A stretch of 26,274 nucleotides of DNA from a virus. The position numbers and the translations under genes were made by a program. The notes beneath the pieces were generated by a model, which was given only the letters and a program-made list of their open reading frames with translations, was not told the origin of the DNA and searched no databases. Location of the stretch: positions 1-26,274 of IMG/VR virus record IMGVR_UViG_3300044630_000986; one strand, written 5' to 3'. Positions 2,014-5,559 of this stretch are shown in pieces. Position 1 is the stretch's first letter. Each line of letters begins with the position of its first letter.

Positions 2014-2438
2014 TACAAAGTCCACGCTTTCTTGTTGTCTACGACAGTTGCTCGCAATCCAATGACTGCGGCTTGCTCCTGTTCAGGGACGTAAATAGTA
2101 CGCACTGAACGCTTGAAACGCAAGTCGTATGCCAACTCTTCAACGTTCTCATAATAATAAACAGGTAGTGATACACCTTTGCGAGCAAGCCACGCATCAA
2201 TAGCGTCTACTGCTTCAAAATCTAAGAATGTGTAAACCTCAGTATCAACGCCCAATCTGTCAGACGTATCTACTAACGCTTTGAGTGGTAGGTCATGCGC
2301 TTTCCATTTTGACAACTCTTTGTTCCAGTCATTGTTGGAGCGCTTAAATAATCTTTGTGGCGGTGGTGTTGCAAGGAGTCCCTCAAAGATTACACCTTGT
2401 CCAATGTCGTTGAAGTTTGCGATGTCATTCCCCTGCAC
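2013..2438 (-). CDS. Unknown replication-operon protein, 141 aa
   Basis: I do not recognise this protein. It lies between the loader ATPase and the helicase and overlaps both, so it probably works with them. The N-terminal part has a loop rich in proline (LLATPPPQRLF). The rest alternates predicted strands and helices (VDTEVYTFLDF, AVDAIDAWLARKG, SVRTIYVPEQEQA), compatible with a small alpha/beta fold. A longer frame opens at a TTG at 2471, but that would overlap the loader gene by 47 nt. The GTG at 2438 has GAAAGG nine bases upstream and overlaps the loader by 14 nt, so I prefer it. No catalytic motif, signal peptide or membrane segment is visible. It could be a fork accessory factor or a degenerate nucleotide-binding domain; neither can be shown from sequence alone. 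Confidence 0.75.
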   Translation of the reverse strand: MQGNDIANFNDIGQGVIFEGLLATPPPQRLFKRSNNDWNKELSKWKAHDLPLKALVDTSDRLGVDTEVYTFLDFEAVDAIDAWLARKGVSLPVYYYENVEELAYDLRFKRSVRTIYVPEQEQAAVIGLRATVVDNKKAWTL

Positions 2439-3075
2439 TGCTAATGACCTTTCGGTAGTCCTGTCCCTCAACGTTGATAAGGAAGCAACTCTCTTGAATG
2501 ATGGAGAGTAAACGCTTTCCGTATGTGCGTGACAGTTCTGCTGGTGGCAGGATGCTTGTAACGATGGTAATCAAACGCTCTTCATAACGATTGTCAATAA
2601 GAGAAATGATTGCGTTACGAGCAAACTCTGTTGTCGCACGCTCTGAACCTAGACCATCCAACACTAGGATGTCAAATGTACGGCGCATGTACTTGAGCAG
2701 GAATGGGTCTGAGTAAGGTTCGGGCAAGTCTCCGTCATTACGCATCTCGTCATAAACCATCTCAATGTAACGGTCTGCTGTAATGAATATTCCTGAGATG
2801 TTGTGGTTACGAATAACTTGTAATGCCGCACCTTGCGCCAAGTGTGTCTTTCCAACACCCGTGTGACCGTACAGATACAAACCCATACCCTCACTGTGGT
2901 TGCGATTAATAGTTGAACACCAATGCTCTACGGCTTCAAAGGATGTCTCATCACCTTTTGACTTATCGTAGTTTGAAAGGTCTTTATCTCTATAACGAGC
3001 AGGGATTCGTAGATTCTTAACTCTGTCTTCTGCACTACGATTTTGCCAGTACTTGTTGCTATGCCACTCAGCCAT
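2425..3075 (-). CDS. DnaC/IstB-like helicase loader ATPase
   Basis: AAA+ ATPase of the DnaC/DnaI family, 216 aa. It should bind the DnaB-like helicase and load it at the origin, the role played by lambda P or host DnaC. Visible motifs are Walker A GHTGVGKT at 70-77, Walker B ILVLD at 136-140, sensor-1-like TS at 173-174 and a probable arginine finger in GKRLLS near 187-191. An N-terminal segment of about 60 residues (PARYRDKDLSNYD) precedes the core, as in loaders that dock on helicase through the N-terminus. Unusually, the residue after the Walker B aspartate is Gly (LDGLG), where the family normally has Asp or Glu. The start at 3075 overlaps the upstream gene by 8 nt and the 3' end overlaps the next gene, so it is part of a tightly packed operon. 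Confidence 0.9.
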   Translation of the reverse strand: MAEWHSNKYWQNRSAEDRVKNLRIPARYRDKDLSNYDKSKGDETSFEAVEHWCSTINRNHSEGMGLYLYGHTGVGKTHLAQGAALQVIRNHNISGIFITADRYIEMVYDEMRNDGDLPEPYSDPFLLKYMRRTFDILVLDGLGSERATTEFARNAIISLIDNRYEERLITIVTSILPPAELSRTYGKRLLSIIQESCFLINVEGQDYRKVISSAGE

Positions 3076-3493
3076 TGTTGTCTTTCATAAGTCGTGGGTC
3101 AATCTTGGGGTCATCATCATAGACGTAGTTTGTTTCAGAACGTTCCACTTTGTTTGCCAAAGTATCTAGACGACCCAAGAAAGCCTTCCATGCAGGGATA
3201 CCGTCAGTCAATGGCTTTATCTGAATGTCTTTGTGGAACTGTGCAATCATTGCTCGTATATCATCATACGTTCTGCCTGTGTCAAGTATCTTGCGGAACG
3301 CTTTCATCATCGCTGGACCATTCACTTGGGCGTTCATCAAGTTGCTGGTATCCATCATCAGTTGGTCTCGGAACTCGTACACCAGAGATGCCGTAGTGTC
3401 CTTGCGTTTTTGTTTCTTGGGTGCTGGCGGTGTGTACTTGTCTTTGTCTGAGCCAAATGCCAGACCCCAATCGTCTTCATACTTTCCCATCAT
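3068..3493 (-). CDS. Unknown protein with KIDPRLM tail, 141 aa
   Basis: No family recognised. The first 35 residues are charged and proline/lysine-rich (PPAPKKQKRK). The middle looks helical (ASLVYEFRDQL, GPAMMKAFRKIL, DDIRAMIAQFHK). An acidic DDDP precedes the C-terminal KIDPRLM at residues 130-136, the same seven residues that end the initiator encoded just upstream. Its ATG overlaps the initiator stop codon (ATGA at 3493-3490), and its 3' end overlaps the loader start by 8 nt. Position and the shared tail suggest it acts with the initiator and loader, for example as a bridge, a second helicase-loading factor or an ssDNA-binding accessory. That role is inference. A second in-frame ATG at 3490 would remove one residue only. 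Confidence 0.8.
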   Translation of the reverse strand: MMGKYEDDWGLAFGSDKDKYTPPAPKKQKRKDTTASLVYEFRDQLMMDTSNLMNAQVNGPAMMKAFRKILDTGRTYDDIRAMIAQFHKDIQIKPLTDGIPAWKAFLGRLDTLANKVERSETNYVYDDDPKIDPRLMKDNNG

Positions 3494-3948
3494 GACATCA
3501 ACCTTGGGTCAATTTTTCCCTTTCTAGTTTGTTTATTCTTGTTACTTATTCTTATTTGGGTAGCGCCCGTGCTACCCTCGGGGGTAGCGCCCGTGCTACT
3601 ACTGGGTAGCGCCCCTGCTACCCCTAATGGGGAGGGTAGTTCCCCTGCTACCCCCACATAATGTGGGTTATTGAAGTTCACCCAATAAGAGTTGGGGAGG
3701 CTTCTGCCGTTCTTGCTAGACGTTCGTTTTATAATGACACCTAGGTCCACTAATTTATTTACTGACCTAATAACGGTGGTACGGTGGTACCCCGTCTGTT
3801 CTGCAATGTGGTCATAGGTAGTCCACAGTTCTTGAGTCTTTCCGTTCATGTAGCACAGCATTTCCAGTAAAACATCCGTAGTCGTAGCGTCTCCCCGAAG
3901 GTACTCTCTCAACCACTTGGGGTATTGAAGGAAGGCTCCATCAGCCAT
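3490..3948 (-). CDS. Winged-helix replication initiator, lambda O-like, carrying origin repeats
   Basis: Protein of 152 aa. Residues about 22-92 form a winged helix-turn-helix (LWTTYDHIAEQTGYHRTT then VIRSVNKLVDLGVI), the type found at the N-terminus of phage replication initiators such as lambda O. Residues 99-130 are a low-complexity Gly/Ala/Ser/Pro linker encoded by four dyad-symmetric DNA repeats. The last 22 residues are basic and end KIDPRLMS. The protein presumably binds the repeats inside its own gene and recruits the loader encoded two genes downstream. The start at 3948 is supported by AAGGAG six bases upstream and by a promoter-like site further up. The gene is first in the operon. 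Unlike lambda O it has almost no C-terminal domain after the repeats, so the short tail would have to do the recruiting. A plain transcription regulator is the main alternative. Confidence 0.8.
   Translation of the reverse strand: MADGAFLQYPKWLREYLRGDATTTDVLLEMLCYMNGKTQELWTTYDHIAEQTGYHRTTVIRSVNKLVDLGVIIKRTSSKNGRSLPNSYWVNFNNPHYVGVAGELPSPLGVAGALPSSSTGATPEGSTGATQIRISNKNKQTRKGKIDPRLMS
3510..3557. other. T-rich, pyrimidine-biased stretch next to the repeats (candidate DNA unwinding element)
   Basis: From 3511 to 3557, 37 of 47 bases are A or T by my count. The plus strand is almost all pyrimidine, so the strands are strongly asymmetric. It begins immediately beside the first 20-bp repeat, on the side toward the C-terminal codons. 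In lambda, an AT-rich asymmetric region lies at the same place relative to the O iterons and is where the duplex opens. It encodes the basic RISNKNKQTRKGK segment, which could in part explain the bias. Confidence 0.55.
3558..3653. repeat. Four 20-bp dyad-symmetric iterons, candidate replication origin
   Basis: Four copies of GGGTAGC-N6-GCTACCC lie at 3558-3577, 3582-3601, 3604-3623 and 3634-3653. Copies 1 and 3 have perfect 7-bp arms. Copy 2 ends GCTACTA and copy 4 begins GGGTAGT. Spacers are 4, 2 and 10 bp, so start-to-start distances are 24, 22 and 30. Because 22 is not a multiple of three, copies 3-4 encode GVAGxLP while copies 1-2 encode STGAT. The DNA is conserved across a change of frame, which points to a protein-binding DNA site. 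They sit inside the initiator gene next to an AT-rich tract, as in the lambda origin. Confidence 0.75.
3653..3667. repeat. Perfect 7-1-7 palindrome flanking the iteron array
   Basis: CCCACAT-A-ATGTGGG is a perfect inverted repeat with a single central base. It directly abuts iteron 4 on the side toward the DNA-binding-domain codons. Its sequence differs from the iterons. It could bind a second factor, or a dimer of the initiator in another mode, or arise by chance in codons for PHYVG. Confidence 0.4.
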
Positions 3949-4049: not shown

Positions 4050-4214
4050 ATGGCTACCAAAAAAGAAGTATGGGATAAACCAAATCCCAAAAAGAAGTCA
4101 GACAAACTTACTCCTGAGCAAAAGTCTGAAGCAAAAGCCCGTGCTAAGAAAGCAGGGCGTCCCTACCCGAATCTCGTGGACAACATGGCTGTGTCCAAGA
4201 AGGATAAGAAATAA
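4050..4214 (+). CDS. Small basic protein, 54 aa
   Basis: Lysine-rich small protein of 54 residues (MATKKEVWDKPNPKKKSDK at the start, AGRPYPNLVDNMAV near the end). Short proteins with a GRPYPNLVDN-like tail occur in many environmental phages, but I know no function for them. It has an AAAGG ribosome site upstream, and its stop overlaps the next ATG as TAATG, so it is translated as part of the cassette. Its first five residues match those of the next gene (MATKK), with different codons. Likely cytoplasmic; nucleic acid or virion association would fit the charge but is inference. Confidence 0.75.
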   Translation: MATKKEVWDKPNPKKKSDKLTPEQKSEAKARAKKAGRPYPNLVDNMAVSKKDKK

Positions 4215-4480
4215 TGGCTACTAAGAAAGACCCACGACTTGAGCGTGCAGGTGTGTCAGGTTTTAATAAGCCAAAAGCAACTCCAGACCACCCCACTAAG
4301 TCACACATTGTTGTTGCTAAAGAAGGTGACCAGATTAAAACAATTCGTTTTGGTCAGCAAGGTGTTCAAGGTTCACCTGATGGTTCTGAGCGTAACAAAG
4401 CGTTTAAGGCTCGTCATGCCAAGAACATTAAGAAGGGCAAGTTGAGCGCCGCATATTGGGCAGATAAGGTGAAATGGTGA
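4214..4480 (+). CDS. Small conserved phage protein of unknown function, 88 aa
   Basis: Basic 88-aa protein. Conserved-looking blocks are KSHIVVAKEGDQIKTIRFGQ in the middle and NKAFKARHAKNI then SAAYWADKVKW at the end. I associate this pattern with a family of unknown function common in aquatic phages, but I cannot confirm the family name. It carries His38 and aromatic residues, but no convincing catalytic set. It opens with MATKKDPRL, whose DPRL matches the core of the KIDPRLM tail found on two replication proteins. It is coupled to both neighbours: ATG overlaps the previous stop, and its own stop overlaps the Dps start (4474-4480). No membrane segment or signal peptide is seen. Confidence 0.85.
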   Translation: MATKKDPRLERAGVSGFNKPKATPDHPTKSHIVVAKEGDQIKTIRFGQQGVQGSPDGSERNKAFKARHAKNIKKGKLSAAYWADKVKW

Positions 4481-4914
4481 GCGCACTTACTGACTCTCTA
4501 AAGACTCTTTTATCCGATACCGTAACAATGTATTTTGTTGCACATGGATTCCATTGGAATGTAGAAGGTCAAGACTTTAGCCAGTACCACTCGTTGTTTG
4601 CAGATATTTATGAAGATGTTTATTCATCCATTGACCCTATTGCGGAAGATGTACGCAAGTTGGGAGAGTACGCTCCGTATACACTCAGTAAGTTCACGAG
4701 TTTACGCACCGTTGAGCCAAAGGATGTCAAGCCCGAACCAAAAGCAATGGCTAAAGAACTTCTCCGCATCAACGAAGATTTGATTGAATCAGTCAACAAG
4801 GCTTTTAAAGAAGCAGAAAAGGCTGACGAACAAGGCATTATGGACTTCTTAGCGGGTCGTGACGACATGCATAAGAAGTGGCGTTGGCAGTTAACTGCCT
4901 CCACTAAGTCCTAG
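4474..4914 (+). CDS. Dps-family ferritin-like protein
   Basis: Dps/ferritin-fold protein, 146 aa, near the lower end of the family range. Dps dodecamers oxidise and store iron and shield DNA. The HWNVEG signature carries His27. His39, Asp54 and Glu58 sit in the order expected for the ferroxidase site formed between subunits. The acidic residue normally four positions after the second His is Ala43 here, with Asp44 next to it, so the iron site may be altered. The C-terminus is basic and helical (MHKKWRWQL). It is last in the plus-strand cassette, and its 3' end overlaps a convergent gene by 24 bp. GTG at 4477 is an alternative start. A role in coping with oxidative stress or Fenton damage during infection is inference. 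Confidence 0.88.
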   Translation: MVSALTDSLKTLLSDTVTMYFVAHGFHWNVEGQDFSQYHSLFADIYEDVYSSIDPIAEDVRKLGEYAPYTLSKFTSLRTVEPKDVKPEPKAMAKELLRINEDLIESVNKAFKEAEKADEQGIMDFLAGRDDMHKKWRWQLTASTKS

Positions 4915-4920
4915 CAGGAC
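4886..4920. terminator. Palindromes at convergent gene ends, possible bidirectional terminator
   Basis: GGCAG-TTAA-CTGCC (4886-4899) is a perfect 14-bp palindrome centred on the stop codon of the minus-strand gene. A second hairpin, GTCCT-AGC-AGGAC (4908-4920), covers the Dps stop. Together they could slow polymerase from both sides. Neither has a T-run, so intrinsic termination is not assured. Confidence 0.35.
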
Positions 4921-5559
4921 ACGCACTTCTTCAACAGTTGCTGGCGTACTAATCACAGTACCATTTGGCATTACAACAGTAATCATACAGTCTCCATCAG
5001 GTGCCACAATTTGTGGTCTTTGTGAAGACGGTGTTGTAATAGTCAAGTTCTCTACAGTACTAGAAGGGTTGCTGGTGCTGTTGCGCTTTTGTACAGCAGG
5101 TGGCATTGACTCAAACTCGGCTTCAGTAAAAGTAGGAGTTTCATCTTTTACGTCAATTGGAATAAGACCATTGGACAATTCCTTTGTCACAATTTTATTG
5201 TCAAATGCGTGATAGATGATGTTGTTCATTTCTTCTGTGTTGTCGTCATCCCACAAGATAAGAAGAGCACCATCTTTCTGCATGATTCGCTCAAGAGTCA
5301 ACTTGGTCGTATTGTCTGTCTGGTAAAAAGACGAAGCATTGTCAATCAAGACTCGTGGTGCCTTACCGTCAGACTCATAAATAACTTCAAAAGATGCTTC
5401 ATTCTCAATAAGAAAATCGTATACACGTTCTTCGTTGGGTGATGGCTTTGTATGACCAACAATAATGAAATCGTTTCCGTCAATTCCTAGGTCTCGTAAA
5501 CCGTCTTCAATGATGTTCTTGGGGCATGTTCCCCCGCCTAGAATTCCGTATGTAGCCAT
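4891..5559 (-). CDS. Rossmann/SLOG-like protein with small C-terminal domain, 222 aa
   Basis: Residues 1-135 look like an alpha/beta nucleotide-binding domain. There is an opening glycine-rich ILGGGTC, then alternating strands such as DFIIVGHTK and RVLIDN, and a late DGALLILWDDDNTEEMNNII that recalls the WDG...GT turn of SLOG/YspA-like proteins. A Ser/Thr/Pro-rich linker follows. The last 35 residues (ITVVMPNGTVISTPATVEEV) form a separate small beta-alpha unit. The function is unknown; ligand sensing is possible but unproven. It is last in the virion operon, 9 bp after the membrane-protein gene. The start has AAGGAAA upstream. Its 3' end overlaps that of the Dps gene on the other strand. I am confident that it is coding and unsure about the fold. 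Confidence 0.75.
   Translation of the reverse strand: MATYGILGGGTCPKNIIEDGLRDLGIDGNDFIIVGHTKPSPNEERVYDFLIENEASFEVIYESDGKAPRVLIDNASSFYQTDNTTKLTLERIMQKDGALLILWDDDNTEEMNNIIYHAFDNKIVTKELSNGLIPIDVKDETPTFTEAEFESMPPAVQKRNSTSNPSSTVENLTITTPSSQRPQIVAPDGDCMITVVMPNGTVISTPATVEEVRVLLGLSGGS

Follow-up and report, generated by a model that had tools for sequence, protein, structure and literature searches.

A predicted theta-type replication origin inside the initiator gene of a myovirus that probably infects actinobacteria

Why should a phage gene carry four copies of one 20-bp dyad within its coding sequence? The window considered here is the whole 26,274-bp stretch of IMG/VR record IMGVR_UViG_3300044630_000986, and the gene in question lies at 3490-3948 on the minus strand. 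In phage lambda the iterons and an AT-rich region lie inside gene O (PMC7466680, PMC6022878), and an earlier note on this DNA had called the locus a lambda-like phage origin. From comparison of sequences we argue, with considerable confidence, that it is the theta-type origin of an actinobacterial myovirus and that it sits inside the virus's own initiator gene.

The first thing to settle is what the gene encodes. Its product of 152 aa has a Pfam HTH_36 match above the cut-off (E 3.9e-9) at residues 26-70, and this match and an alignment place the winged helix-turn-helix (wHTH) core at 3739-3873 on the minus strand. The wHTH region also matches PHROGs 270, 678, 428 and 391, which are O-like or replication initiation families (E 2.6e-14 to 5.8e-8). 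The AlphaFold model is a winged helix that resembles MarR-type folds. In an alignment of the initiators the putative recognition helix includes Y54-H55-R56-T57-T58. The N-terminal winged-helix domain of an O-like initiator is thus found by both Pfam and PHROG, and the earlier description of a winged-helix protein gene with repeats is borne out. Residues 94-142 have pLDDT below 50 and form a low-complexity linker that is probably disordered. The protein ends in a short tail of 21 aa (3490-3555, minus strand) that finishes KIDPRLMS. Past the last dyad there are no more than about 21 residues, which agrees with the very short region after the repeats that had been described before. No loader-binding C-terminal domain was found within this polypeptide. 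The four PHROG models are 298-455 positions long and the window's protein spans their N-terminal part only. The candidate for the C-terminal module is a separate gene in the window.

That gene, which we call gene 2 (3068-3493, minus strand, 141 aa), was previously unannotated, and it shares 4 bp of its start with the stop of the initiator gene. All of the operon runs on the minus strand in the order initiator, gene 2, loader, a 152-aa gene, DnaB and primase. The loader (2425-3075) is a DnaC/IstB-type AAA+ protein (PHROG 50, 2.5e-43; Pfam IstB, 6.2e-11). The DnaB-like replicative helicase (763-2025) matches PHROG 19 (4e-61) and Pfam DnaB_C (4.1e-30). The DNA primase (3-965) has a CHC2 zinc finger and Toprim, is cut by the window edge, and matches PHROG 47 (1.2e-32), Pfam Toprim_2 and Zn_ribbon_DnaG. 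These matches uphold the loader, helicase and primase that had been read from the sequence, and tail sheath, tube and baseplate genes confirm that the virus is a myovirus. The 152-aa gene between loader and DnaB (2013-2471) has no family match below 0.03; a counterpart at the same operon position in record L086 (7041-7469) makes it a conserved replication-operon gene.

Just upstream, on the opposite strand to the initiator, is a phage-encoded ferritin-like/Dps-type protein (4474-4914, plus; Pfam Ferritin 6.6e-16, PHROG 3636). It overlaps the gene for a small conserved protein of PHROG 7595 (4214-4480, plus; 4.5e-36) in which DPRL occurs close to the N-terminus. A 222-aa protein (4891-5559, minus), with no Pfam match and no convincing one in PHROGs (best E 0.02), is encoded between the replication and tail gene clusters. 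The hosts are probably actinobacteria, judging from gene content: a scan of the relatives found two WhiB-family genes in the records of each of nine, and in the control set Corynebacterium alone matched. A scan of GTDB genomes with the initiator alignment, for prophages or hosts, found no relative.

The dyads themselves are clear. They follow the pattern GGGTAGC-N6-GCTACCC and lie in the 3' third of the initiator gene, spanning 3558-3653. In the coding direction they are dyad 1, GGGTAGCAGGGGAACTACCC (3634-3653), dyad 2, GGGTAGCAGGGGCGCTACCC (3604-3623), dyad 3, TAGTAGCACGGGCGCTACCC (3582-3601), which has two mismatches in one outer arm, and dyad 4, GGGTAGCACGGGCGCTACCC (3558-3577), which adjoins an AT-rich tract. 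Counted over both arms, two dyads have no mismatch, one has one and one has two. Their starts are spaced 24, 22 and 30 on the plus strand, or 30, 22 and 24 in the coding direction. When at most two mismatches were allowed, a search for the pattern across all 26,274 bp of the record returned exactly these four, and the reversed pattern used as a control gave 0 matches. The four dyad-symmetric repeats reported previously are therefore confirmed and are the sole sites in the record.

The tract beside them (3515-3557) is A-rich on the coding strand and is a candidate DNA unwinding element on the grounds of duplex stability, synonymous constraint and conservation. Its duplex stability falls in the lowest 0.3-0.5% of the record's windows (0.3% for the least stable 30-bp window), and of 4000 windows within 1.5-5.5 kb only 3 are less stable than the least stable 40-bp one there. 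This rank agrees with the AT-rich tract already noticed beside the repeats. It must be noted that in a 94.5-kb relative the tract reaches only the lowest 1.5% of the contig in stability, which counts against the origin reading.

How far does the comparison with lambda hold? The N-terminal DNA-binding domain, the four dyad iterons (18-20 bp) in the linker-coding part of the gene, the coding-strand-A-rich AT tract 3' of the last iteron and the loader gene downstream are all shared. The lambda iterons start at spacings of 20, 24 and 23. The iteron sequences are unrelated, and lambda O has about 155 aa past its iterons where the window's initiator has 21. The lambda loader is P, whereas here it is of the DnaC/IstB type, and unlike lambda this phage encodes its own DnaB and primase. 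A search for homology to lambda O gave no match with hmmsearch and an E of 0.2 with hhalign. "Lambda-like" is therefore right for the architecture, and it fails for sequence homology to O and for a P-type loader.

One can imagine a scenario where the dyads are operators, the winged-helix protein is an autoregulator of the replication operon downstream, and the true origin is elsewhere. Winged-helix and MarR-like folds are common among regulators, and dimeric dyads are typical of operators. However, the dyads are in the 3' third of the coding region rather than at a promoter, and a conserved AT-rich tract comes after them. The best family matches are to replication initiators, the loader, DnaB and primase are in the same operon, and a four-site array at fixed spacing mirrors ori-lambda. 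We consider the operator scenario improbable.

If the locus is an origin, the array should be kept in relatives. The five closest records (86-93% aa identity to the window's initiator) retain it. Broader scans brought the working set to 50 initiator records, counting the window's own, with identities down to about 32%, and a half-site array or a remnant of one is at the same point in 50/50. These relatives are all metagenomic contigs, which may be incomplete. In the nearest clades the coding-direction spacing is 30/22/24 or 26/22/24, and a few records such as L045 and L072 have imperfect arms. Almost every relative has a similar AT tract after its last dyad. It is read in another frame in L076 and L083-L085: the stretch ACCCAA...AAGA is translated TQIRI in most relatives, and TPNKE or SPNQE in L076 and L083. 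In long contigs the arrays cluster only at the initiator gene, with scattered two-mismatch matches elsewhere, and the 94.5-kb relative has one dyad cluster.

Relatives whose initiator gene lacks the repeats had been named as a check on the origin reading, and none was found; L082 alone lost most of the array and has one dyad left. Its initiator (L082:4980-5440) is truncated and frame-shifted, and the AT tract and the old tail run on in another frame. This state is either a real deletion between iterons or a repeat collapse in assembly. Cumulative GC skew, another check that had been proposed, lends no support: in the 94.5-kb relative the minimum is at 63.1 kb and the dyads are at 24.9 kb.

The half-sites differ between relatives. 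Most relatives have GTGTC/GTGAC, the window's clade has TAGC/T, L069 has GTATC, and L086/L087 have GGGTCA. In a tree of the wHTH domain the TAGC/T type is one group (89/98; 8 distinct sequences) nested in a supported set (98/94) that also holds five GTGTC-type rows, and L069 branches separately, among GTGTC types. Within an array the half-sites have all switched together, in one lineage from GTGTC/GTGAC to TAGC/T and in a second lineage to GTATC. The recognition helix differs too: position 55 is H in the TAGC/T clade and S or D in the others, and position 57 is I in L069 and R or S in its neighbours. That half-sites and helix change together is indirect support for the initiator recognising its iterons specifically. 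The tie between half-site type and particular helix residues is suggestive only, since the independent switches are few and the tree was built from the domain including its own recognition-helix residues.

Whole-array switching bears on a second scenario, where the dyads are RNA hairpins (attenuators, processing sites or regulatory stems) in the mRNA of the replication operon. Each dyad could form a short stem with a 6-nt loop, and dyad symmetry is retained when the sequence changes. A stem needs only self-complementarity, yet all copies in a genome share their arms and change together, and where the arms change, so does the recognition helix of the DNA-binding protein that the gene encodes. 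This fits a protein acting in trans and does not fit RNA hairpins, which we regard as very improbable. A third scenario, less probable again, is a centromere-like site for partition or plasmid-like maintenance bound by the wHTH protein. The fold matches do include TubR and the pNOB8 centromere proteins, which are winged-helix proteins that bind tandem sites; against this, no partition ATPase was recognised alongside, the adjacent genes being those for loader, helicase and primase, and conservation extends to the AT-rich tract.

The remaining question is whether the dyads are kept as DNA at all. We compared synonymous differences per opportunity (pS) among eight sequences from the window's clade: the value is 0.849 in the wHTH and 0.120 across the dyads and AT tract together (p about 5e-5 by column permutation). 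Over the first 96 columns of gene 2 pS is back at 0.75-0.81, so the constraint is local to the dyads and tract. Within the dyads, nucleotide diversity (pi) is 0.034 in the inner arms vs 0.342 in the 6-bp centres. Recombination was considered as a source of the low synonymous diversity and rejected because the centres vary freely in the same stretch; frozen arms around variable centres mean that recent homogenisation is not the cause of the pattern. Dyads 1-2 are read as VAGALP and dyads 3-4 as STGAT, which are different frames, and the tract is read in two frames as well, so the encoded protein is not what is preserved. At the level of sequence this shows that dyads and tract are held as DNA rather than for the protein. 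The idea that the repeats come from a repetitive linker peptide or from chance gains something from the low-complexity, low-pLDDT linker encoded here, and we give it almost no weight, as the repeats are read in two frames, no further repeats occur elsewhere in the record and, decisively, synonymous sites are nearly frozen with arms conserved and centres not. The phage origin that the earlier note had inferred is supported by the array in 50 homologues, the synonymous constraint, the conservation of arms over centres and the concerted change.

An origin needs more than recognition, and this brings us back to the short initiator. Lambda O binds DNA through its N-terminal part and P through its C-terminal part, and a linker joins the two (PMC6022878). 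In the window's initiator the missing C-terminal part appears to be the next, overlapping gene, which is the likely reason why the region after the repeats is so short. Gene 2 directly follows the initiator in 41/41 records with enough downstream sequence, the window included. In the distant relatives L086/L087 there is instead a single ORF of 396 aa with the wHTH, three dyads and then a gene-2-like region. Gene 2 matches the fused region of L086 with hmmsearch (18.8 bits, i-E 2.7e-5) and hhalign (E 4e-7), the fused protein also matches PHROG 270, and the L086 operon agrees with the window in its order of loader, DnaB and primase. Since the gene-2 domain is fused to the initiator there, the initiator is probably split in the window. 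We lean towards a division into a wHTH protein with the origin and a separate gene-2 module that would contact the loader; gene 2 would then be the loader-contacting half. We put about the same, modest trust in the broader claim that the split initiator and at least two wholesale half-site switches with the recognition helix make a series of distinct initiator/origin pairs.

Other searches with gene 2 gave little. Nothing significant was found in the PDB by profile or Foldseek, nothing below 0.01 in PHROGs, and nothing by tblastn in the phage collection. Matches in BFVD to HTH/initiator proteins and to phage BRock are suggestive, but at E 0.03 or more. The best VIA fold match is to lambda P residues 32-119 (Z 6.7), within the noise range for helical folds; such folds reach this Z by chance, so the match is a lead only. 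The initiator and gene 2 share the C-terminal motif KIDPRLM (codons 3490-3513 and 3068-3091). Paired tails within one genome occur elsewhere (IDPRLKRKK and IDPRLKK in L054, VDERLK and LDGRLR in L084), and such pairs suggest a common docking partner.

Is there a better model than lambda? SPP1 has oriL in gene 38, with repeats and an AT-rich DUE, and its own loader gp39 and DnaB helicase gp40; it has a second origin, oriR, and relies on host DnaG (PMC6316719). Compared by layout and gene content, the window has the parts of an SPP1-type module: an initiator gene with the putative origin inside, a loader and a phage DnaB. It differs in having its own primase, and there is one dyad cluster in the 94.5-kb relative rather than an oriL and oriR. 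As a model, SPP1 gp38/gp39/gp40 is no less close than lambda. The kind of origin is already known, as lambda O/ori-lambda and SPP1 gp38/oriL share the architecture. Within the open-access full-text literature, what sets this one apart is the separated C-terminal module, the DnaC-type loader together with the phage's own helicase and primase, and the series of specificity switches.

BRock, a Streptomyces myovirus (Borockvirus), is one of the closest isolated relatives when capsids are compared (59% identity). A profile search finds a gene-2 homologue there, gp115 (29.7 bits; L104:6272-6733), near a DnaC-like loader, and DnaB and primase are in the same region. The first 100 kb of BRock has no detectable wHTH initiator of the window's family, so its origin-recognition step may differ. 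BRock gp120 was considered as a hidden initiator and rejected, as it has no wHTH match and no dyad array. Gp115 is an unannotated gene in an isolated virus, and that makes BRock a cultured system for gene 2.

By analogy with lambda and SPP1 (PMC7466680, PMC6022878, PMC6316719) the predicted origin could work as follows. As in lambda, dimers of the winged-helix initiator would bind each of the four dyads and wrap them. The resulting strain may melt the adjacent AT-rich tract. The gene-2 protein and the initiator's short tail would bring in the DnaC-type loader. Judging from gene content, the loader would put the phage DnaB helicase on the DNA, and the phage primase would then prime.

It is rare for the origin of an uncultured environmental phage to be located. 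Here a predicted one can be narrowed down from sequence to about 140 bp, and about 50 related records share the prediction. The half-site types GTGTC, TAGC/T, GTATC and GGGTCA, with their helix variants, make co-change of specificity between initiator and origin directly testable. If the split initiator is true, the two halves of an O-type protein, one for DNA recognition and one for helicase recruitment, would be separable, and a previously unannotated gene, BRock gp115 included, would gain a candidate function.
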